A stretch of DNA of 64,000 nt, from the NCBI RefSeq assembly GCF_921293095.1, contig NC_060254.1, positions 55,226,069 to 55,290,068 of the forward strand, given 5' to 3'. The notes beneath the pieces were generated by a model. It made no database searches, was not told the origin of the DNA, and worked only from the letters and a program-made list of their open reading frames with translations. Below, in pieces: positions 3,560-61,895 of the stretch (positions are counted from its first letter, which is position 1; every line of letters starts with the position of its first letter). The position numbers were made by a program, and so were the translations under genes. The DNA comes from Ischnura elegans (lineage: Eukaryota > Arthropoda > Insecta > Odonata > Coenagrionidae).

Positions 3560-5484
3560 TGACATAAATTTATTTGAATAACTCACCTTTTCATGTGAAC
3601 TGAAAAGAAAGAAAAAAACCATTTATTTGCTATTTGGCACTCTTTTGTGCAAAAGTTTTTGTTAGCCTTACAGGACTCTTTTTCATAATGTTATATTGAG
3701 AGAATAATATTACTAAAAATGAAAAAATAAAAAATAATTTTTAAAAAGCTTTGGTAAAATATCCTTATTTTTTCCGTGTTTTCGTCCATCGTCTAATAAT
3801 CTATTCGCGGCGAAAAATCGATCCTGAGTCTTAATTCTTTCGAAGAAAGGTTAATGAAGCATCGAGCTTATACCGAGCTTCAAATATTAAGCAAGAATTT
3901 ATTAAGGATTCTTGTTAGCTCTCGATATTCTTTTCATCGAGTTCGCATTCCTCCTCGTATTGTGGTTTCGGCGATCAATGGTCCATCGGAGGCGAGAGCA
4001 AGAGTTTAATGGCACCACAAAAGAAACCCGGAAGTTACGACGGAAATCGGGTTTCCTCCCCACATTGTTGGCGAATGAATGAATCCATGAATAATGAATT
4101 ATCCATTAGCATCAGTGGTTCTGTGTTCCACTGCTCGTAAATCTGTCTGAATCCATCAAGCCCATATCCAAAGGGATGTTCCCCGCCTGACGTGGTTGAA
4201 TTCCATGTCGGTTTCTCACCCGCGGTTGGTGCTCTATTTTATATTCATGTGGCATTTAAGGCATGATAAAACTCTCCCGGTGACCCCATGGTTCAGATTT
4301 TGGAGTGAAATCGTGCCACCTCAATGCTCAGTTGTATAAAGAGGCAATTATTGATTTTTATTTCACTTTACTGTTAAATTGAATATATTTTAGCATTAAT
4401 GCAACTATAATGCTTTTGCAATTGTCGCAATTTGTTCCTGTGTATAATGATAGATTTTAAAATGCAATTTCCGCGAGCGAGAGCTAAGAACCTATTTTAT
4501 TCCGTCATCGGTCGATAAAATTTTATTAGTAGAAAATATTTTAAACTTTTTTTTATGAATTTGACGTTTACTTTGTTATAATTGTTATGAAAATACCTGT
4601 ATTTCAACGCAAATGTGCCATCATCTGCCGAAACATCATATTACTTGGCGTGCATTGAAACCTCGTACCTTTAATTATGAAATTGAACGCTTTCGCAAAG
4701 GTAAGCCTAAAATTAAATATTGTGTAAATGATTTACTTTTCTTTAGTATTTCAGTCCTAATATAGGTGTACTGTAACCCGCCATGTCTCCTTTTCTCAAG
4801 ATTCTTACTTTCCGGATATTTTTCTTCCTTATGTCCTTCTTCATATGAACCATGTACTTTACCTCTAGGTTCTCCTCCGTGGACTTTCTTGCAATTTTTC
4901 CCTCCACGCTACTCCTCGCATAATTATTAACTCATCGGGCTATATTCTTACGCATTGAATACTTTAAATTAACCTTGGATTAGTACTTTTTTCTCTATTT
5001 TCGAAGTTGCATCGTGGCGAATATTGGTTATGAGAAATTCTGAAGCATTTCATTGTTACGTGATCCGCGGTAGAAGCAACAGGTCCTCCAGCCCGCAGCG
5101 AAAGTATTTCTCCTGAATTCAAACTGGTGAATAGTACGGCCAGATAAAACTTTCTACGACACAACTGCGCCGAAGGCGCGAATAGGCAATAGGCATAGGT
5201 AATAATCATAGGTATAGGCAATAGGCATAGGTAGGAGCTGTACCGATGAGCCTTGGCTCACACCTACCAGCCAGTTTACAATAATATTTAAAATGACGCA
5301 CGTGTTCTTTTGCTGGTGTATAATGTTATTTGGGAGAAAGATAAACTTAATCTAGAATTTGATAGTACTTAATACAGTTAAAATTCAAGGTAGCATAAGG
5401 TAAATTTATTTTTTCCATTAATTATTTTTTTTACATTTTTGTTACCTGCTCATGCTTTTATCCAAGAGGACTGCATGGTGGAGG
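3560..5484. other. Non-coding, no recognised element
   Basis: I see no coding homology or transposon structure here apart from the short tandem repeat at 5181-5233. The part 3780-4320 is less AT-rich than its surroundings and looks like single-copy sequence. Confidence 0.4.
5181..5233. repeat. Short tandem repeat, ATAGGCAATAGGCATAGG unit
   Basis: Two main copies of a unit close to ATAGGCAATAGGCATAGGT with partial units between them. Confidence 0.7.
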
Positions 5485-10087: not shown

Positions 10088-10224
10088 TCGATAACACCAC
10101 TGCACAAACGCTCAACAATCCCCCACCAAATCAAATCCGCTCATCTAGTAGCCCTATTAGTCCTAGATAAGCGGATTTGATTCGGTGGGCGATTGTTGAG
10201 CGTTTGTGCAGCGGAGGTATCGTG
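10088..10224. repeat. Foldback hairpin inside LINE tail A
   Basis: 10100-10148 and 10163-10211 are near-perfect inverted repeats (TGCACAAACGCTCAACAATC outermost; core CAAATCCGCT-ATCTAG) with a 14-nt loop. Weaker symmetry extends the stem to about 10088-10224. It could form a ~60-bp stem. It separates two parts of one LINE, so it is an insertion. Confidence 0.85.
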
Positions 10225-17832: not shown

Positions 17833-18884
17833 TCTTTCGTAAAGCGTGTTTGAAAGCTGTAATAAAAAAAGATTCAGTTTGCTCGAATCAAATTTTTTTG
17901 CCATTATGAAATTCTAAGTTTTCATTAGTTTATTTATTTACAACATATTCAGCATAAAAATATTATACATTAAAAATAAATTAAATAAAGGTCTCATAAG
18001 GTAAAGAGAACCTAATGCTTTTTGAAAGGGTTATTCGAACATGTTAGTTTAGAGTTTTTTTAGATTTCAGTGCACTTTCAAGGATTTCAGGAGGACTTTC
18101 AGATTCACTAAATATATAATAAAATTATAATATGTTATAAAATTTTATAAGCTGTGAAATTCTCAACTTTCATAGTATTTTTTTTATTTATAAATTGCTA
18201 TTTTTGTTAACTTTTATGTATTTTTTAAGAGTCCGAATAGCGTCAAAATCCATTTCCGAATATGCAATTTCCTGAAATTTTCTGGGGAAGCACTCACGAA
18301 TCCCCCCAGTAAAATGGGCCCCATCATCTAGCCGAGAGCCCCCGATCACCCCATACCATTCCTGATCTTATAGCAATGCGGGGTTGGTTCTAGATATTTT
18401 TCTAGTGTAAGCGAACAAAATTCGCTCCCCCCCTCAAAAATAGCCTAAGAGGTAGTAGGGATTCCATCTGGATGTATTTTAAAATTAATACAAATACTAT
18501 AGGATTAAGTATCTGGTCGCGAGTTAAGTATCAGTTTGAGCTCGTAACATGCATGCTCTTATATAGTGAAAGTGATATTTTTAGGGCTTAAAAACCAGCG
18601 CTTAGATATCCTTAACGCTTCAACCGGCCCGGCAGCAATGCTATAAGATTAATACGTGGTTTAAATATATTATTGAATCAAACAGTACCTCGAATTCCCA
18701 GGAGAGAGACATTAGGGTGGGCCCCGTGGATTATCAACTAAAGATGTACATAGTGATGATAATTGGTACTTATATATATAGGGACTCAATATCGGTTGGG
18801 ATGAGCCCTTAGTAAGTGTACGAGGTATAACGTAAACAGTTCTATAGTTTCCATCCAGTTTAGATCATCCTCCTCCATCCTTGC
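17833..18884. other. Start of intron 1, no recognised element
   Basis: AT-rich from 17860, with G/C homopolymer patches near 18285-18440 similar to those in hAT-type MITEs but without identifiable ends. Confidence 0.35.
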
Positions 18885-18889
18885 CGACG

Positions 18890-19346
18890 CACAGTGGGCT
18901 AGAATCGAAAAAAGCTGGCCAAAACCTCAAAAACGAGTTTTTTGAGCTAGGAAGTTGAAACTTCGCATACATGTTCTCAAATAAATTGCGCAGAGCTTTC
19001 CAGATTATTTCTTTCCTGTGTATTCACCTTAAAAATATATTTGAGTTCGAAGTTGAACAAATTTAGCGAAAAACGACCAACCTCGATTGTTTCTGAAAAC
19101 TGCCAAATTTATCCTCGTGCAGTGGTTTCATGAATAGTTTTATGGACAAAACTGTTATACCATCTTAATTGATACTTCTTTTTCTTCCATTTGAGGGGTT
19201 TTTAAAGATTTTGTTTCTTCGATAACCTTAGATATATAACAAAATGGCGGAGCCTGTTTTCAGCCTTTTAGCATTTTCAACTTCCTAGCTTAAAAAAAAT
19301 CCTTTTTGAGGTTTTGGCCAGATTTTTTCGATTCTAGCCCACTGTG
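18890..19346. mobile_element. Transib-like non-autonomous element with RSS-type heptamer ends
   Basis: Both ends begin CACAGTGGGCTAGAATCG; the inverted repeats run about 70 bp to the AGCTAGGAAGTTGAAA block. The flanks are CGACG at 18885-18889 and 19347-19351, an exact 5-bp GC-rich duplication. A CACAGTG terminus and 5-bp GC-rich duplications are the described hallmarks of Transib, the superfamily related to RAG1. In both ends GCCAAAACC lies 21 nt inside the heptamer and matches 7 of 9 positions of the RSS nonamer ACAAAAACC. There is no transposase; 457 bp. Confidence 0.85.
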
Positions 19347-19711
19347 CGACGTTTCGATGAATGACTTATTCATTTTCAGCAAGGCTGTTGATGCCTGTTC
19401 TCGAGCGACCAGGTTTGTGTAGTTTTTTTTCAGGTGAGGTCGGTTCCTGAGAGAATCACACTATACCAACCCAGCCACTCGAGAACCCTAAGGAGAAAGG
19501 CTAACAACAGACATACATCACAGTAATGATGTATTTTATTATCTCTCATGTAATTTACAAACTCAAATCTGGGAGGTAAAAGGGCCTCATATGTGGTATA
19601 CCCTAGGGCTTCTTTTTCATCTATATCCGCCCGAGCATGGGAGGGACATGTAAAATATGATCAGGAAATACATGATATGTAAAACTTTGGAAATTGAATG
19701 ACACACAGGGG

Positions 19712-45500: not shown

Positions 45501-45653
45501 ATTGTTCTGTTACTTCTTGATAATGACCTGAACTCGTGAACCATTGATTTGATTGAAAAGATTAGCTGATAGGATAATTGGGTGGAAAGCTGCGTCAAAC
45601 TAATTTCAGGATGAACGAATTTAATTTCTCCTGGTTATTACTATTGATGAATT

Positions 45654-45864
45654 CTTCTCGGGTTCTCAGCCAGGTTAATTCTTTCGTATAAGCCAGCGTT
45701 TCGAGAGACGACTTGTCTACCATCTTCAAGGCCGTGTTACTCTTTGAAAGTTTGAGTGTGAAATTGGACTTACAAAGAGTAACACAGCCTTGAAGATGGG
45801 AGACAAGTGTCTCTCGAAACGTTGGCTTATGCGAAAGAATTAACCTGGCTGAGAACCCGAGAAG
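45654..45864. repeat. Foldback hairpin with ~92-bp arms and CTTGAAGATGG ... CGAAACG motifs
   Basis: 45654-45746 and 45773-45864 are about 93% identical inverted repeats separated by 26 nt; outermost CTTCTCGGGTTCTCAGCCAG. Each arm contains, on one strand, TTGAAGATGG, a small stem (GGGAGAC-AAGT-GTCTCTC in the right arm) and CGAAACGTTGGC. Confidence 0.9.
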
Positions 45865-45869
45865 AAATC

Positions 45870-48800
45870 AACTTCTAGATCGTTGACTAGTGATGATGAT
45901 AAGCGTAACGTCAGCCAATAAAGTGCTACTAGATTGGAATGTATCTGAAAATGTCATTTACTTCTTTCCTTGGGACGACCTCTTTAAATTGTATCGTGGC
46001 GGGGTATTTCCTGGTTCTCCCTCCCTGCCTCCCCTCACTCTCCCTCCCCTCTTGAGGGAGGAACGACCCCTCCCTCATCCCCCTCGTGAGTTTTATTTTC
46101 GACCGCCGACGCATGGGGCCTGATCCGAAATTAATGCGCGACCACACTCCACTCTGCGGGGAGTGGCTCATTCCATCTCCACTACTACCATACAGTATAA
46201 GTGCTTCCTGTCTCCTCGTTTAACCGTGAGCACACAATGCACCCAAGTAATACCTTACGAGATAACTCGACGGTGTTTGGCATGGGGTTGAGTTTTCACC
46301 TGCATACGCTTCAGACAATACGCTTCATTTGAGCTTCATGCGTATCCAAAACAAGCGGGTGATTCCATTTGCGTCGGAAATACCTTTAGAGAAGCTATGC
46401 AATAGGATATTCCGATAAAAGTGTAAAATACAGAAAAAAAATTGCCAAACTTCTTACTAAGCATTGTCAAAAAACATTTATGAAGGTGATTTTCATGTAC
46501 AGAAACAAAATAAATTCTCGAAATACCTTATAAATATGCACAAATTTAACATGTGACGGAATAACTGTCAGGTCAACCTCCTAAGTGTAATAAATTCAAA
46601 CATCTTCAAAACTCTGTGAATCAAAGAATAATTTGAAAACTTTTAATAAGGCTCTGAATAATGTTTCAAATACTGATTTCATAAAATTATATCATTTAGC
46701 TGTTGATTTATCAAGATAAAATATTTCCAGCATAAATTTTAATTTGAGAGAAAAAGTTGAAATTTTCATGGAAATGTCCAAATATTAAGTTAGGTTCGTG
46801 CTTCGAAATTGACGGTTACTATTGTTATCAGCACAGGAGCGCGAAAGCGCTTCGTGATGGCATAGGTAGAAAAACAAAAGAAGTTACTGTTGCGGAAGAT
46901 AAATAATGTCATCTTCTCCTCTTTGTGAAAACATTAAATCAATTGTTTGCTCACCCTTAATGCCTTATAAGCAATAAATTGAAAAAAAATAAATCTAATA
47001 ATGTGTTTTGCTTGTGTAGTTAAATTAGGATTGCCGCTTGCGATATATCCTAAGCCATGTTCCTGTTGCATTCAAAGTTTTTATGTGTTAAAGATTTAGC
47101 AAAAGTTACTTTCTTTAGTCTAATTCAATTTAGACTGACTTACGAAGTGTCATCATGCTACAAATATTAAAGAATGAAGTGGAAAATGAAAATTATCCAA
47201 TCTGTCTCCCCAGTGAATGCGGAGATTTCTTTCGTGACTTGCGTTGACGTCTCTATAATTTTCAAACCCTATCATTATTCACAGTAATTGATTAACGAAT
47301 CCATGTACTGGAAAATTCGGAAGCTTGGCCACTGTGCTCGCTACTAGTTTCCGTGTGGACTTGTTACCTGTAGAACTAACCGTTTCTAGTGACCAAGCTA
47401 TTGCAGCCTCCGATTCTCCGGCTCCCGAACTAAACCACATAAAAGAAAACAAGTGCAGGTGAGTAGCAGCGAAAAATAAAAATGCTTTTTCATCTTGATT
47501 GGTATTTAAAAATAGTAACAGAACTGGATCCAAAAGATGATTTTGTGTGCTAGACGCTATACCTGCTACGGTTGAAAATTTCTCTTGGACAATATGGATT
47601 GTTGACGAGTTAACTATGTGGAAATTTATCGTAGTAGATACAACAATAATAATTTCCTAATAATATTTATATGCTTGTGATCATTCATCGGATGCGTGTT
47701 ATTTCATATTATTTTATGAGTGGAGCGTATTCTGATCGAAAGACTTTACGAACATTTACAATTTCACTATTAACTCCAAACTCGCTATCGACAACTTCAA
47801 AGTACTAACGAATACGTTAACATACAACAGAGAACGATTGATCATCGCGTAACATAAAAATAATCGCAAAACGAAAATGAAAAGACCACCACCATATGTT
47901 GCCATACTTTATAAATGTTTTCCACTGAAAGATAAAATATATTAAACTGAGGCATTTTCAAAAAAGTATACTAGAAATACGGTGCCGACTTACTCACCTT
48001 TCGCGGCTGTGCAGGTCCTTCCCCCGCCTAAGGCTCTGTGGCCCTGACCAAGTCCTTTCCTCTTATTTGACCTACCAACTCCTTCTTTTAACACATTAGC
48101 CCTCCTAACCTTCCTAATAATATATGTATACGTCAGGATTTCTGCTCATAACTCTTGAAAATTACATCGAAAGTACATCGCATTGTTCGAGAAAAATGAA
48201 AAAGGTATGGAAAACGACTACGGTTGTCTCTTCATCTATATCTCTCGAACGTTTCCTGGACGTCGTGGGGCCGAGCATATCTCGGTGCGGAGAGAGCTGA
48301 ATGGTAAGACGAAAGGGAAAGAGCGCTGACAAGCAAAAGGTTTTACTCGCTGATTACTAGTGCGCTCTAATTTCTGGCGTTTGTGGGACAGCGTCCTTAA
48401 TCTTACGCAAGGCCGGAGCGTGTGGAACCCTGCTCGTGATGAGGACCGCAGATTTATGAAACGATGCCTATGCCAGGGTGTCCACTGGGGTGTGGCTTAT
48501 TTTTTTGTGATTTTTTTCGGATTTTCGATTTCAACCTTCTGAAATATGCTGTGAGAAATTGAGTCTACGTGCGAAAAAAAATCAGTATTTCCTTTTATCA
48601 TTTAGAGGTTTCACATAAGCCCTGATTGTAAAGAATTTTTTTCAAATCGATGAAGGATTATCATTTCTTAGGGTAAAATAAAAAAGTTAGAATGAAGCTT
48701 TACGAAACAAAGGTATATTCTAAATAATTATGCCATACTTCTTAGTTATTCTCAAGTCTTTCACTGATTGCATAGTGATTATTATGCATTTGAGAATGTG

Positions 48801-49150: not shown

Positions 49151-49157
49151 TAGTTGA

Positions 49158-49540
49158 TGGCGTTTATAAATAAATTTGCATTAATGTCATTCTGACACTA
49201 ATTTAATCTACTTATACCATTTAAATAATTGTAATATTAACAATAACGTTTATTATTACTCAAAACAGCAAAAAAAAAGTTAAAATGTATTAATTTTTAC
49301 GTCATGAGTGTTTTTAAGGTGCCAAGAAGGTGGAACTTCATGTGGACTGCCAACATTTGATAGGAAGTTATGCCTTCACGTATGTAATTGAACATGGGAA
49401 ATAAGTTAAAAAATGGAAATATCAGAACCTTATCAGAATCAGCAATATTATCTCGATTATAGGCAAGATACTTGAGCATATCGTCGTTAGCAATATCATG
49501 ATTTTCTTGGACAGTCGTAACTTCATCCATGGCTGTCAGT
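49158..49540 (-). repeat. Unidentified ORF-bearing repeat (copy 1)
   Basis: About 380 bp duplicated at 51700-52062, same orientation, roughly 90% identical. Both copies keep an ATG-to-stop frame on the - strand; here 77 codons (49297-49530) beginning MDEVTTVQENHDIANDDMLK and ending KTLMT. I do not recognise the protein: no signal peptide or membrane segment; the first half is acidic and polar. The right edge coincides with the 5'-truncated end of the LINE at 49542. Confidence 0.7.
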
Positions 49541-49541
49541 A

Positions 49542-50735
49542 TGGCTTCGGAAAAGGTGGATCATGCGAAACGTAGCTCGCGCTCTTTCTTCATGACGTTC
49601 TCAAATCTGGTGAATCGAAAAGACAAGTTGACTCATTAATTCTAGATTTTAAGAAAGTTTTCGGCACATTACCGCACAATAAACTTTTACACAAATTACA
49701 GTCATGCGGATTAAACGAACAGTGGTAAACTGAATATGAGACTTTCTGAGTGATCGTAAAAAAAAGTAGTTCTTGACGGAATTAGCTCTGATGTAGTTAA
49801 AGTGACATCAGGTGTTCCACAAGGAAGCGTAATCGGCCCTATTTTGTTCATTTTATACATTAATCACCTCTTCTCCCGAATTAGCAATAAAATATGTTTG
49901 TATGCTGACGGCGCTGTCACCTATCGTGAAATTAGTGATCATTCTGACTATGAAATTCTATCATCGGGTTTAAACAACGTTCATCTGTGGAGCGAACAGT
50001 GGGGACTCGAACTTAATCTGAGCATTTGTACGGCGGTACATTTTTTGCATAGTTCGTCATACTATAACCATGTTTATGCTGTGGTTGATATTAAAATAAA
50101 TACAACAAACGAAAAGAAGTACCTGGGAGTTGCGATAACCTCGTACGTCTCGTATGGAACACGTATAGGGAATATTTGCGGTTTAGCATCGAATAAATTA
50201 GGATCCGTCAAGCGTATTGTGGCAAGATTTACGGATGAGAAAGTAAAAGAATGTTGCTATATCGCACTCGTCCGACCGCACCTTGAATATGATGCAGCGA
50301 GCATATGGGATCCGGTTTAATCTGTGAACTGAATAAAACACAAAGGAAGGCTGCGCGGTTCGTCAAAAACTGCTACGGACGTACAGACAGCGTTACCCAG
50401 ATATTAAGCGAGTTAGGCTGGGAGCCGCTGGCGACTCGGAGGCTGCGCGCTAGGCTTAGATTGCTTGAACAATTGAGAATAGATATCTTTAAGAGCGACA
50501 TGTAGAACATAATATTAGAGCCCCTCTATATTTCCTTGTCCGACAGAAGCTATAAATTAAGAGAGATTTTTAGCCGAACGGATTGATATTGGAATTCGTT
50601 TTTCCCCCTAATTATAAAGGACTTTCATAAATGCTAATTGTAATTTCGCTTTTCCTTTTTATATGAAACGGCTGGTGTCCTTACACCCCTACCACACGCC
50701 TTTTAGGCGGCTTGATGGTTAGTATGTAGATGTAG
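49542..50735 (+). pseudogene. CR1-like LINE reverse transcriptase, 5'-truncated and mutated
   Basis: The longest LINE in the window. It starts inside the reverse transcriptase (GFGKGGSCET near 49545), continues DSLILDFKKVFGTLPHNKLL (motif with the first Asp), TSGVPQGSVIGPILFILYIN, then LYADGAVTYRE, where the second Asp of the YADD box is Gly (49900-49912). After the thumb region (KKYLGVAI, ECCYIALVRPHLEYDAASIW) a frameshift at about 50320 leads to KTQRKAARFVKNCYGRTDSV, LGWEPLATRRLRARL and FKSDM, then the 3' end with TTTTAGGCGGCTTGATGGTT near 50700 and GTAGATGTAGA. The endonuclease and ORF1 are absent. Dead on arrival or soon after. Confidence 0.92.
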
Positions 50736-50794
50736 ATCTCATAATAGTTTAAAAGGCATCTTCTCCAGTATAAGGTATTCCAGTGCTAGGAAGA

Positions 50795-51075
50795 GGTGTG
50801 GAAAAGAGTTGGAGAGTGGGAGAAAATGAATTCTTAAAGAAACCTTATGGAGAAGACGGGACTATATTGTATGCCACTTATTGAGATGTGATGGCCTGAT
50901 GAAAACATTCGTATAAGGACAGGTGGAAGGGAAGAAGGGCAAGGGACGGCCCCGAATGAGTTACATAGGACAGATTATAAAGGATGTAAAAGAGAAGAAA
51001 TATGCCTCTATGAAAACGCTAGCGGATAGGAGAGAGGAATGGAGAGCTGCGTCGAACTAATCTTAGGATTGTTGT
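50795..51075 (+). pseudogene. LINE-2-type C-terminal fragment (copy i)
   Basis: Frames give RLYCMPLIEM-WPDENI-like and, better, KGKGRPRMSYIGQIIKDVKE, KKYASMKTLADRREEWRAAS N. It ends in a GATGATGATGA tract at 51083-51093. Confidence 0.85.
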
Positions 51076-51099
51076 TAATGTGATGATGATGAAGGTACA

Positions 51100-51695
51100 T
51101 ACCATACTTTCTTGTTGTAACCACCAAAAATGTAGCACATCACTCAATATTGCATTAAGAGGATTGGAGTTGACTCATGAAGTAGGAAATAAATTGAATA
51201 ATGTCTGTACTACGCACAAAAACATCTTTTAATTGAAGTTTGTTTATTTATCAGAAAGGCCATTGAAATGTCTCATTATTTATATGGGGAGAAATCACAT
51301 TTACTAAGTTCCGTGGTGGTACCACTTCTTTAAAAGGAACATAAAATCCAAGCCTTTCCTTTAACGTAAGGCATTAGTTATTTCTGAATGACTTTCTTCC
51401 AACTGTGTTGTTGGCGCGCTCTGACGCAATGATTACTTGACGTTACAATTCTAACCAGCTGCATTGGAATTTATTGCCCAATCGCCGTTCATCCAGTTGG
51501 ACTTGAAGACGAAGTGAGGAAACGTGAAGGCGAGTAACTCACCGCTGTGATGTAACGCCCCACCGCCTCACTCATTCAAGAGTTCTTGTGGCGGTGAGAG
51601 AAAATCGTAGTTCCGTGAGGAAGATTATTGAATGAGAGAGGGGGAATCGGAGGTCAAACGGATGACTTATTTATGCGTACTCTTGTCAATCTTGA
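51100..51695. other. No recognised element
   Basis: Nothing identified between the LINE fragment and the second ORF-bearing repeat. Confidence 0.35.
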
Positions 51696-51699
51696 TGAA

Positions 51700-52062
51700 G
51701 TTTATAAATAAATTTGTATTAATTTCATTATGACCCTGATTTAATCTACTTATACCATTTAAATAATTATAATATTAACAATAATGTTTATTATTACTCA
51801 AAAACAGCAAAAAAAGTAGAATGTAATAATTTTTACGTCATGAGTGATTTTAAGGTGCCAAGAAGGAGGAACTGTATGTGGACTACCAACATTTGATTAG
51901 TAGTTATGCCTTCACTTACGTAATTGAACATTCGAAATAGGTATAGAGCATTATCAGAATCAACAATATTATCTCGATTATAGGCAAGATACTTGAGCAT
52001 ATCGTCGTTAGCAATATCATGATTTTCTTGGACAGTCGTAACTTCATCCATGGCGGTCAGTG
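51700..52062 (-). repeat. Unidentified ORF-bearing repeat (copy 2)
   Basis: Counterpart of 49158-49540. The - strand frame is 72 codons (51833-52051), again MDEVTTVQENHDIANDDMLK at the start and KSLMT at the end; a 15-nt difference in the middle removes five codons without breaking the frame. Homology ends within a few bases of the ATG on one side and near GTTTATAAATAAATTTG on the other. Confidence 0.7.
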
Positions 52063-52172
52063 TGAATTTGTCTTTTCAAAGTCATCATAACTGGTCAACA
52101 ACAATCCTAAGCTTTTTGAAAGCTTTTCTTATGGTTTCAGACGATTTTAGAGGGGGTCATTTCTATGACTAA

Positions 52173-53310: not shown

Positions 53311-53470
53311 ATGCCTCGTTCAGATTACGATTGTTCCAGCGATCGTTGGAACTATCATGCATTCACGCATTCACACTACGATGGCTAAACCTGTGCTGCC
53401 CTCCAGTGCTAAAATTTAAAGTGAACGAGAAATTGACGGTTGGCAATGCAAAGTTGAGGTATTTAGGGTA
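53311..53470 (-). mobile_element. TIR element fragment (partner of 58517-58952)
   Basis: ATGCCTCGTTCAGATTACG and the following 150 bp match the reverse complement of the right half of 58517-58952. Only one end is present. Confidence 0.7.
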
Positions 53471-58516: not shown

Positions 58517-58952
58517 ATGCCTCATTCAGATTATGATTGTCCAAGCGATCGCCCATACGATAATTGGCCGAACTAGCAGTGTGAATTCATGTCCTGACAA
58601 TAGTTAATGTAGTTCCGAACGTTGCCACTTAACGATGGTTTGGCGCTAGGAGACCGGAAGAGGAAGCGACAGGAGAAAGACGAGAAGTTCGTGAAGCACC
58701 CTTCGCTATATTTCTTTTCATGAAATCCTAGTCCTAGGAAGGAAGAGTATGGGTGGAAGAAAAATTATTCGGTAAATACAAGTTGAACACAGTAATATCT
58801 TGACCCTGTATGCCTCAACAGCTGTGCTAACCGTCAATTTCTCGTTCACTTTAGATATCAGCACTAGAGGTCAGCACAGATTTTAACCATCGTTGTTTGA
58901 ATGCACGATAGTTCCTACGATTGCTGGAACAATCGTAATCCGAACGAGGCAT
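58517..58952. mobile_element. TIR element with ATGCCTCRTTCRGATTA ends
   Basis: Left ATGCCTCATTCAGATTATG and, inverted from the right, ATGCCTCGTTCGGATTACG. Inverted similarity extends about 37 bp. 436 bp, no coding region. Confidence 0.8.
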
Positions 58953-60900: not shown

Positions 60901-61141
60901 CCACCACTTAGAAAATGCTAAATTCGTACGCGACCTACCACGCCCCACTTCTGCCTACTAGTTGCTTAGGCATGTTCATGATGGATAGTGCCCTTGCGAC
61001 TTATGTGATGACTCGTTATCACTCTCTGGGGGGGCCTCTGCCCCTGGTATAATAAATGCGAACATGTGAGCTATAGTATAAACTTAAAGACATATCTGAC
61101 TAAAATGTCACGGCATATCGAATTATAATGGATGTTGTATC

Positions 61142-61424
61142 AGTTTTCCTGGATATACACAATTACTTATACCACTTATTTTTTATCAGAGCGCGACCCG
61201 GGTTTCAAAGAATTAGCATCATATTCAGGCGCAAATTATGATTTTAAAAATTTTAAAAATTAGTTATGATTTAAAAAACTAATTATGATTTAAAAAATTA
61301 ATTATGATTTAAAAAATAAAAAAAATCATAATTTTAGCCTGAAGATGATGATAATTCATTGAAACCCGGGTCGCGCTCTGATAAAAAGTAAGTGGTATAA
61401 GTAATTGTGTATATCCAGGAAAAC
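61142..61424. repeat. Foldback with ~100-bp arms and AT-rich tandem loop
   Basis: 61142-61245 pairs with 61325-61424 (AGTTTTCCTGGATATACACA, TATCAGAGCGCGACCCGGGT and TTCAGGC blocks). The loop holds three to four copies of AATTATGATTTAAAAA. It lies about 470 bp upstream of exon 2. Confidence 0.9.
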
Positions 61425-61895
61425 TTATAATGGAATAGCACAAAGTAAAGCAAGAGTTAGTGAATTTTGGATGTTATATCGTTTAATCGGATATTTATGG
61501 AATTACATGACGTAATATTTTGTCGGGAAACAAATTTTGAGGTGTATTTATTCACGATATTTTATCGTCGTTTTTATCAGTGTATTTTTTTCTTAAGTTT
61601 TTATTTATTTTTAACTCGCCCTTTCATATGAAAATTTATCTATTATAGATTAAAATAGGCGTTTTATAAGATTTCTAGCTGAATTACATCGTGATATATA
61701 TCCCAGAAACTGGAGACAAAATTGTTTAAATCTAAACTTGAATAAGAACAAAAACTCCGGAAATAATTAATATTTTATGAAACAGATCTTCTCGCATAGT
61801 TTGTTACTATTGAGCACAATGTGTACCAAGTATTATCTATGTTGGAAATTACTCGTATTTTTATATGAAATATTCCCTATCTATTTGGTTCGCAG

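Follow-up and report, generated by a model that had tools for sequence, protein, structure and literature searches.

The 457-bp element at positions 18890-19346 of the window (the whole stretch of 64,000 nucleotides of Ischnura elegans DNA analysed here) is almost certainly a non-autonomous, MITE-sized member of an I. elegans Transib family. Transib is a group of cut-and-paste transposons related to RAG1, the enzyme that rearranges antibody genes. The first-pass annotation, made from the letters alone, had read the element as a non-autonomous Transib derivative, and this interpretation is supported by 5-bp target-site duplications (TSDs) and by the remnant of a Transib transposase, which lies between the same ends in longer relatives. 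The terminal anatomy seen in the raw sequence, namely the heptamer and the 5-bp GC-rich duplication, sufficed to name the superfamily, and the linked remnant then agreed. The features of the element and its surroundings are the following.

18830..18889, plus strand: left part of the older repeat hosting the insertion (paralogues match the joined empty-site query across the junction, many at 96-252)
18885..18889, plus strand: TSD, left copy, CGACG (sequence; joined empty-site query)
18890..18961, plus strand: left terminal inverted repeat (TIR) of about 72 bp (93% identical to the right TIR over 72 bp)
18890..18896, plus strand: left terminal heptamer CACAGTG, equal in every letter to the consensus heptamer of the recombination signal sequence, RSS (sequence; excerpt of PMC8289069)
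18890..19265, plus strand: arm-derived body, 376 bp aligning at 94% with bases 1-374 of the long arm of the family
18918..18926, plus strand: GCCAAAACC, 9-mer resembling the nonamer (7/9 to ACAAAAACC), separated from the heptamer by 21 nt
19275..19346, minus strand: right TIR of about 72 bp
19310..19318, minus strand: nonamer-like 9-mer of the right end
19340..19346, minus strand: right-end terminal heptamer
19347..19351, plus strand: TSD, right copy, CGACG (sequence; joined empty-site query)
19352..19448, plus strand: right part of the older repeat hosting the insertion (joined-query paralogues)

The inverted ends are 93% identical over about 72 bp with a 1-nt indel, which confirms the TIRs of about 70 bp starting with CACAGTG that had been noticed earlier. 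The left heptamer CACAGTG occupies 18890-18896 and its inverted counterpart 19340-19346; GCCAAAACC is found at 18918-18926, with its complement at 19310-19318, in both cases 21 nt inward of the heptamer, as the first-pass annotation had described. The exact CGACG duplication that it reported is also present on both sides (18885-18889 and 19347-19351), and the TSD is exactly 5 bases long, since the adjoining base differs at both sides. No stop-to-stop frame of at least 150 aa is found in 18890-19346. The ends of the family to which the element belongs read CACAGTGGGCTAGAATCG. The 16-mer CACAGTGGGCTAGAAT, searched for with up to 3 mismatches, has only two sites in the window, both exact, and these are the two ends of the element; shuffles average 0.28 matches, and two matches are reached in 3 of 100.

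The family is large. The search of the genome for further copies with these TIRs, proposed in the first-pass annotation, gave 525 and 509 occurrences of the exact 20-bp terminus (1034 in all) in the I. elegans genome, against 0 for the backward control pattern. With the window element as the query, 2852 first-look candidates were obtained, 40 of which were scored. Each heptamer position is conserved in 93-100% of 42 ends, the ends themselves having been found by their likeness to the window end. Terminus matches in contig collections (one genome-contig locus with an 18-mer, 35 viral-contig loci with a 15-mer) were rejected as chance, because a second end with at most 2 mismatches is absent from all 36 stretches and blastn matches there extend over no more than 20 bases.

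One contig (C1) carries 87 exact family ends, including 22 neighbouring plus/minus pairs less than 12 kb apart; 18 of these pairs span 3234-3341 bp and the other four 1113, 3441, 3493 and 5252 bp. Of the 20 regions fetched first (L045-L064), 14 show a single family end in about 6 kb, and the homology breaks off at varied interior points. Once ends were seen to pair at a distance of 3.3 kb, we abandoned the view that the copies are naturally one-ended. A two-ended copy at L064:5355-5996 retains only 25 bp of the terminus at its left end, with flanks matching in 4 of 5 bases; hence the minimal end required may be short.

By walking through copies, we assembled a form of about 4.07 kb, in which inverted arms of some 918 bp each enclose roughly 2.2 kb of interior sequence. 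Two loci were combined into this chimeric reference, together with a majority consensus of the fetched copies; no single end-to-end copy stands behind it, and the 98.9% identity of its arms is not an independent figure, because the arms share copies. The window copy corresponds to bases 1-374 plus 3992-4062 of the reference at 94%, as would be expected if it arose by internal deletion from a longer, long-armed element. One copy was read of a young subfamily of about 3.3 kb, and its two arms share 99.6% identity over 728 bp. This identity suggests recent movement of dead copies, and hence a transposase that was live recently, with the caveat that gene conversion can also keep arms alike.

For the TSDs of the young subfamily, ten members were drawn from the list of remnant matches described below, the left end of the tenth lying 4 bp outside the fetched stretch. 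The TSD is exactly 5 bp in all nine copies with both ends read: CGAGG, CGTCG (four copies), CGCCG, CGATG, CGCTG and CAGCG. Among the seven older two-ended copies four have an exact 5-bp TSD (the window copy, L046, L050 and L060), and the flanks of the other three agree in 4, 4 and 3 of 5 bases (L056, L064 and L038, the last identical with L055). Copies consistently showing another duplication length, which the first-pass annotation had named as evidence against Transib, were thus not seen in either group.

The duplications also bear on the explanation that the element is a hAT or CACTA/Chapaev-type MITE, the end of which reads CACAGTG by coincidence. CAGTGG sits two bases inside the end of the window element, and hAT ends often begin with CAG. 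The hAT target-site duplication, however, is 8 bp, and such a duplication around an end starting with CAGTGG misfits the window flanks; the exact 5-bp duplications in 9/9 young copies and the Transib nature of the coding remnant linked to the ends argue against hAT and CACTA alike. We give this explanation next to no chance, and proceed with Transib.

Transib targets resemble CGNCG. This motif abuts 26 of 42 distinct family ends and none of the 42 at -15..-11, and it occurs at 0.2% per site in the window. The GC content of the five flank bases (-5..-1) is 82% over the 42 ends, versus 46-48% further out; ends matching only from after terminus base 5, or lying at a locus edge, were dropped from this count. 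The GC-rich 5-bp duplication that had been invoked as typical of Transib is matched by these ends. A GC bias of Transib targets is also given in the excerpted text of PMC8289069.

When 13 two-ended sites, the window site and 12 fetched ones, are symmetrised, C at -7 (17/26) and G at -6 (14/26) from the centre are favoured, which suggests an extended palindromic target like TCGAAA-CGNCG-TTTCGA. CG stands at the palindrome position in 9 of 42 ends, whereas any other single position between -40 and -6 has it in 0-6 ends. We treat the extended palindrome as a lead only, because a repeated target may be common to some of the sites.

The site of the window insertion was examined with an empty-site query of 305 nt, made by fusing the two flanks of the element at a single CGACG, for which 40 of 190 candidates were scored. 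The 52 matched stretches comprise the two own flanks and 50 others. Among the latter, 46 cross the junction (from base 140 or lower to base 165 or higher) at 72-86% identity; they are not 46 independent sites, since some are inverted pairs at one place. As the empty paralogous sites cross the junction, the element entered an older repeat, and its target at the window locus was the CGACG within that repeat.

The long relatives carry the remnant of a transposase. In the interior of the 4.07-kb form, the minus strand has a 75-aa frame that matches residues 413-462 of the HzTransib chain (Helicoverpa zea, 6pqn_A) with E 5.4e-7. A read-through frame of the same interior strand recovers the C-terminal piece in a search of PDB (E 1.7e-5), and another gives a weak piece at residues 382-406 of the chain (8.3 bits, sequence E 0.37); a third showed nothing notable against PDB. 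A trace at residues 76-115 scores 2.3 bits and alone is not significant. The three pieces are collinear and all on the minus strand (1819-1851, 1549-1608 and 1457-1537 of the reference), and about 570 bp are apparently missing between the first two regions. The gene is broken by a frame shift and stops. The 75-aa frame presumably holds the Glu of the catalytic triad, as judged by comparison with RAG1. Of the DDE triad, the first-Asp and Glu regions appear in the relatives only as remnants, the first of which is not significant alone. In HzTransib the triad is D126, D225 and E436 (excerpt of PMC6941560).

With the 75-aa piece as the query, 150 of 2755 genomic candidates were scored. Most of them contain stops and very many have one TAG and one TAA; these recurring stops indicate a dead gene amplified together with its element. 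On C1, 18 remnant matches fall among the 150 scored; of these, 14 are flanked on both sides by inward-facing exact family ends no more than 6 kb away, three on one side and one on neither, and near this last (L068) lies a mutated end. By comparison, an inward-facing exact end is near 0.25% of random C1 positions. The Transib/RAG1-like core that the first-pass annotation had proposed to look for between identical TIRs was found as a broken remnant, near the ends in 17 of 18 cases on C1; an intact enzyme with these ends was not. The first-pass annotation had also asked whether a relative with these TIRs might encode a different transposase, and the longer relatives carry the Transib type. The Pfam RAG1 model gave no match to this genome, and this null is uninformative, because the model detected 0 of 14 controls.

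An alternative is that the element belongs to the RAG-like transposons (RAGL/ProtoRAG), which carry RAG1L plus RAG2L instead of a Transib transposase (PMC8289069 and PMC7204232, in excerpt). The window element has the exact RSS heptamer, and RAGL transposons are likewise reported, in the same excerpts, with ends starting CAC and 5-bp GC-biased duplications. However, the remnant matches HzTransib, and in the search of PDB chains with the 75-aa frame no RAG1 chain appeared at E up to 1, the sole other match being a Homer protein (E 0.41). The protostome RAGL end consensus CACTWMCAAACKTYKBB (excerpt of PMC7204232) mismatches CACAGTGGGCTAGAATC, and the ProtoRAG heptamer is CACTATG (excerpt of PMC8289069), where the window element has CACAGTG. 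A RAGL origin is thus very unlikely, and Transib remains the reading that we follow.

We also weighed the explanation that the mover is a PF20700 (Mutator-like) plus YqaJ element, with the Transib remnant as a passenger. One locus (L089) holds an old fragment of the family together with minus-strand PF20700 and YqaJ frames, and it is one of 12-13 places that share the same match pattern and have nearly equal scores. The fragment, however, is only about 81% alike, truncated and with a degenerate end, in line with a piece that another repeat has carried along, and the remnants between paired CACAGTG ends are Transib. PF20700/YqaJ as the family's own transposase was set aside on the state of this fragment and on the C1 linkage, and we hold the passenger explanation to be extremely improbable. 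The minus-strand frames lie within L089:2218-7920 (C6:36085717-36091419): PF20700 appears twice, one match just under the cut-off and one over it, along with PF09588 (YqaJ). The L089 repeat is probably a young DNA transposon in its own right, the ends of which were not found.

With the Transib assignment in place, the ends can be compared with the RSS of V(D)J recombination. The heptamer CACAGTG is identical in both, and its identification as the RSS heptamer in the first-pass annotation agrees with the consensus quoted in the excerpt of PMC8289069. Unlike the RSS, the window element has no 12/23 asymmetry, its nonamer is weak, and its sequences flank a transposon. The spacers are 21 and 21 nt, so that both ends are alike and form no 12/23 pair, and the 9-mer matches the RSS nonamer ACAAAAACC in 7 of 9 positions. 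A second 7/9 nonamer-like match is found at spacer 30 of the left TIR. When the letters of the left TIR body are shuffled, 0.4% of trials give a 7/9 match at spacer 21, 1.2% at spacers 20-22 and 17% anywhere. Beyond the heptamer, the RSS likeness of the element is weak; of the RSS-like subterminal order claimed earlier, the exact heptamer stands, and the symmetric spacers and 7/9 nonamer do not bear it out.

Transib ends with symmetric spacers of 20-22 bp are described in PMC8355894, and according to PMC8289069 the TIRs of most Transib families are symmetric, clearly resembling the heptamer and resembling the nonamer little or not at all; as far as the excerpts of these papers go, the window element fits both patterns. 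The symmetric-ended Transib elements (PMC8355894, PMC8289069 and PMC9435367, in excerpt) share with it the spacer length, the heptamer likeness and the near lack of a nonamer, and beside them the window element would be a further sequence family, as far as their descriptions allow a comparison. HzTransib shares the Transib transposase (here a remnant), long TIRs and a 5-bp GC-rich duplication, GCTCG in that case (excerpt of PMC1852546), its TIRs being compared with the window element by description and not by letters. It differs in being 3518 bp long with a deduced protein of 489 aa (same excerpt), whereas the window copy has 457 bp and no gene and the gene of its long relatives is broken. The element is textbook-like in the Transib superfamily features tested, save for an intact enzyme with these ends.

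Hence, we suggest the following course of events for the window copy and its relatives.

Step 1: An internal deletion in a long-armed element would have left about 376 bp of one arm together with the terminal 72 bp of its partner. Supplied from outside the element, a Transib transposase would then bind both ends, mobilizing the element in trans.

Step 2: The cut would fall at the 5' side of each CAC via the nick-hairpin route reported for HzTransib.

Step 3: The joining of the ends to a GC-rich target, CGNCG, would be staggered by 5 bp, in keeping with the observed duplications and target preference. Host repair would fill the stagger, giving rise to the TSD.

The autonomous Transib with these ends was not found when HzTransib-like matches on C1 were compared with the exact family ends. 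The 50-aa HzTransib piece reveals many Transib frames in the genome (150 of 2684 candidates scored), including open frames without stops of 585 aa (C8:105835770, minus strand) and 517 aa (C3:129493824, minus strand). On C1, 13 HzTransib-like matches are among the 150 scored, and not one has an exact family end within 6 kb. The 585-aa locus, read over 260 bases as LSEEAMEARNKDFRRFRE..., is closer to HzTransib (score 174) than to the remnant of the family (126), the aligned lengths being different. Since open frames reach 585 aa and 0 of 13 matches are near family ends, other Transib families with longer frames inhabit this genome.

The present family adds an abundant Transib family of Odonata, with arms of about 0.9 kb and the exact RSS heptamer. 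No report on Transib together with Ischnura or damselflies was found among the matches listed in open-licence PubMed Central, which is weak evidence of absence. It is possible, and on balance somewhat doubtful, that a Transib transposase acting on ends with the exact RSS heptamer is active in I. elegans now or was so very recently, that it mass-mobilized the dead 3.3-kb subfamily, and that it prefers a target like TCGAAA-CGNCG-TTTCGA. If true, this damselfly would offer a living enzyme and its substrate, on which RSS-heptamer recognition by a relative of RAG1 could be tested.

We note several further repeats in the window. Inverted arms of 225 nt at 1-225 and 1949-2173, 98% complementary and 1.7 kb apart, with one at the window edge, mark another inverted-repeat element. 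Inverted blocks at 53311-53445 and 58825-58952 are 88-93% complementary and about 5.4 kb apart. Three hairpins (45648-45870, 61138-61429 and 10089-10222), with arms of 60-123 nt that are 89-95% complementary, are possibly fold-back elements. Direct repeats 85-96% alike and about 2.5 kb apart lie within 49154-52064, around a reverse-transcriptase fragment (PF00078, 49760-50320).
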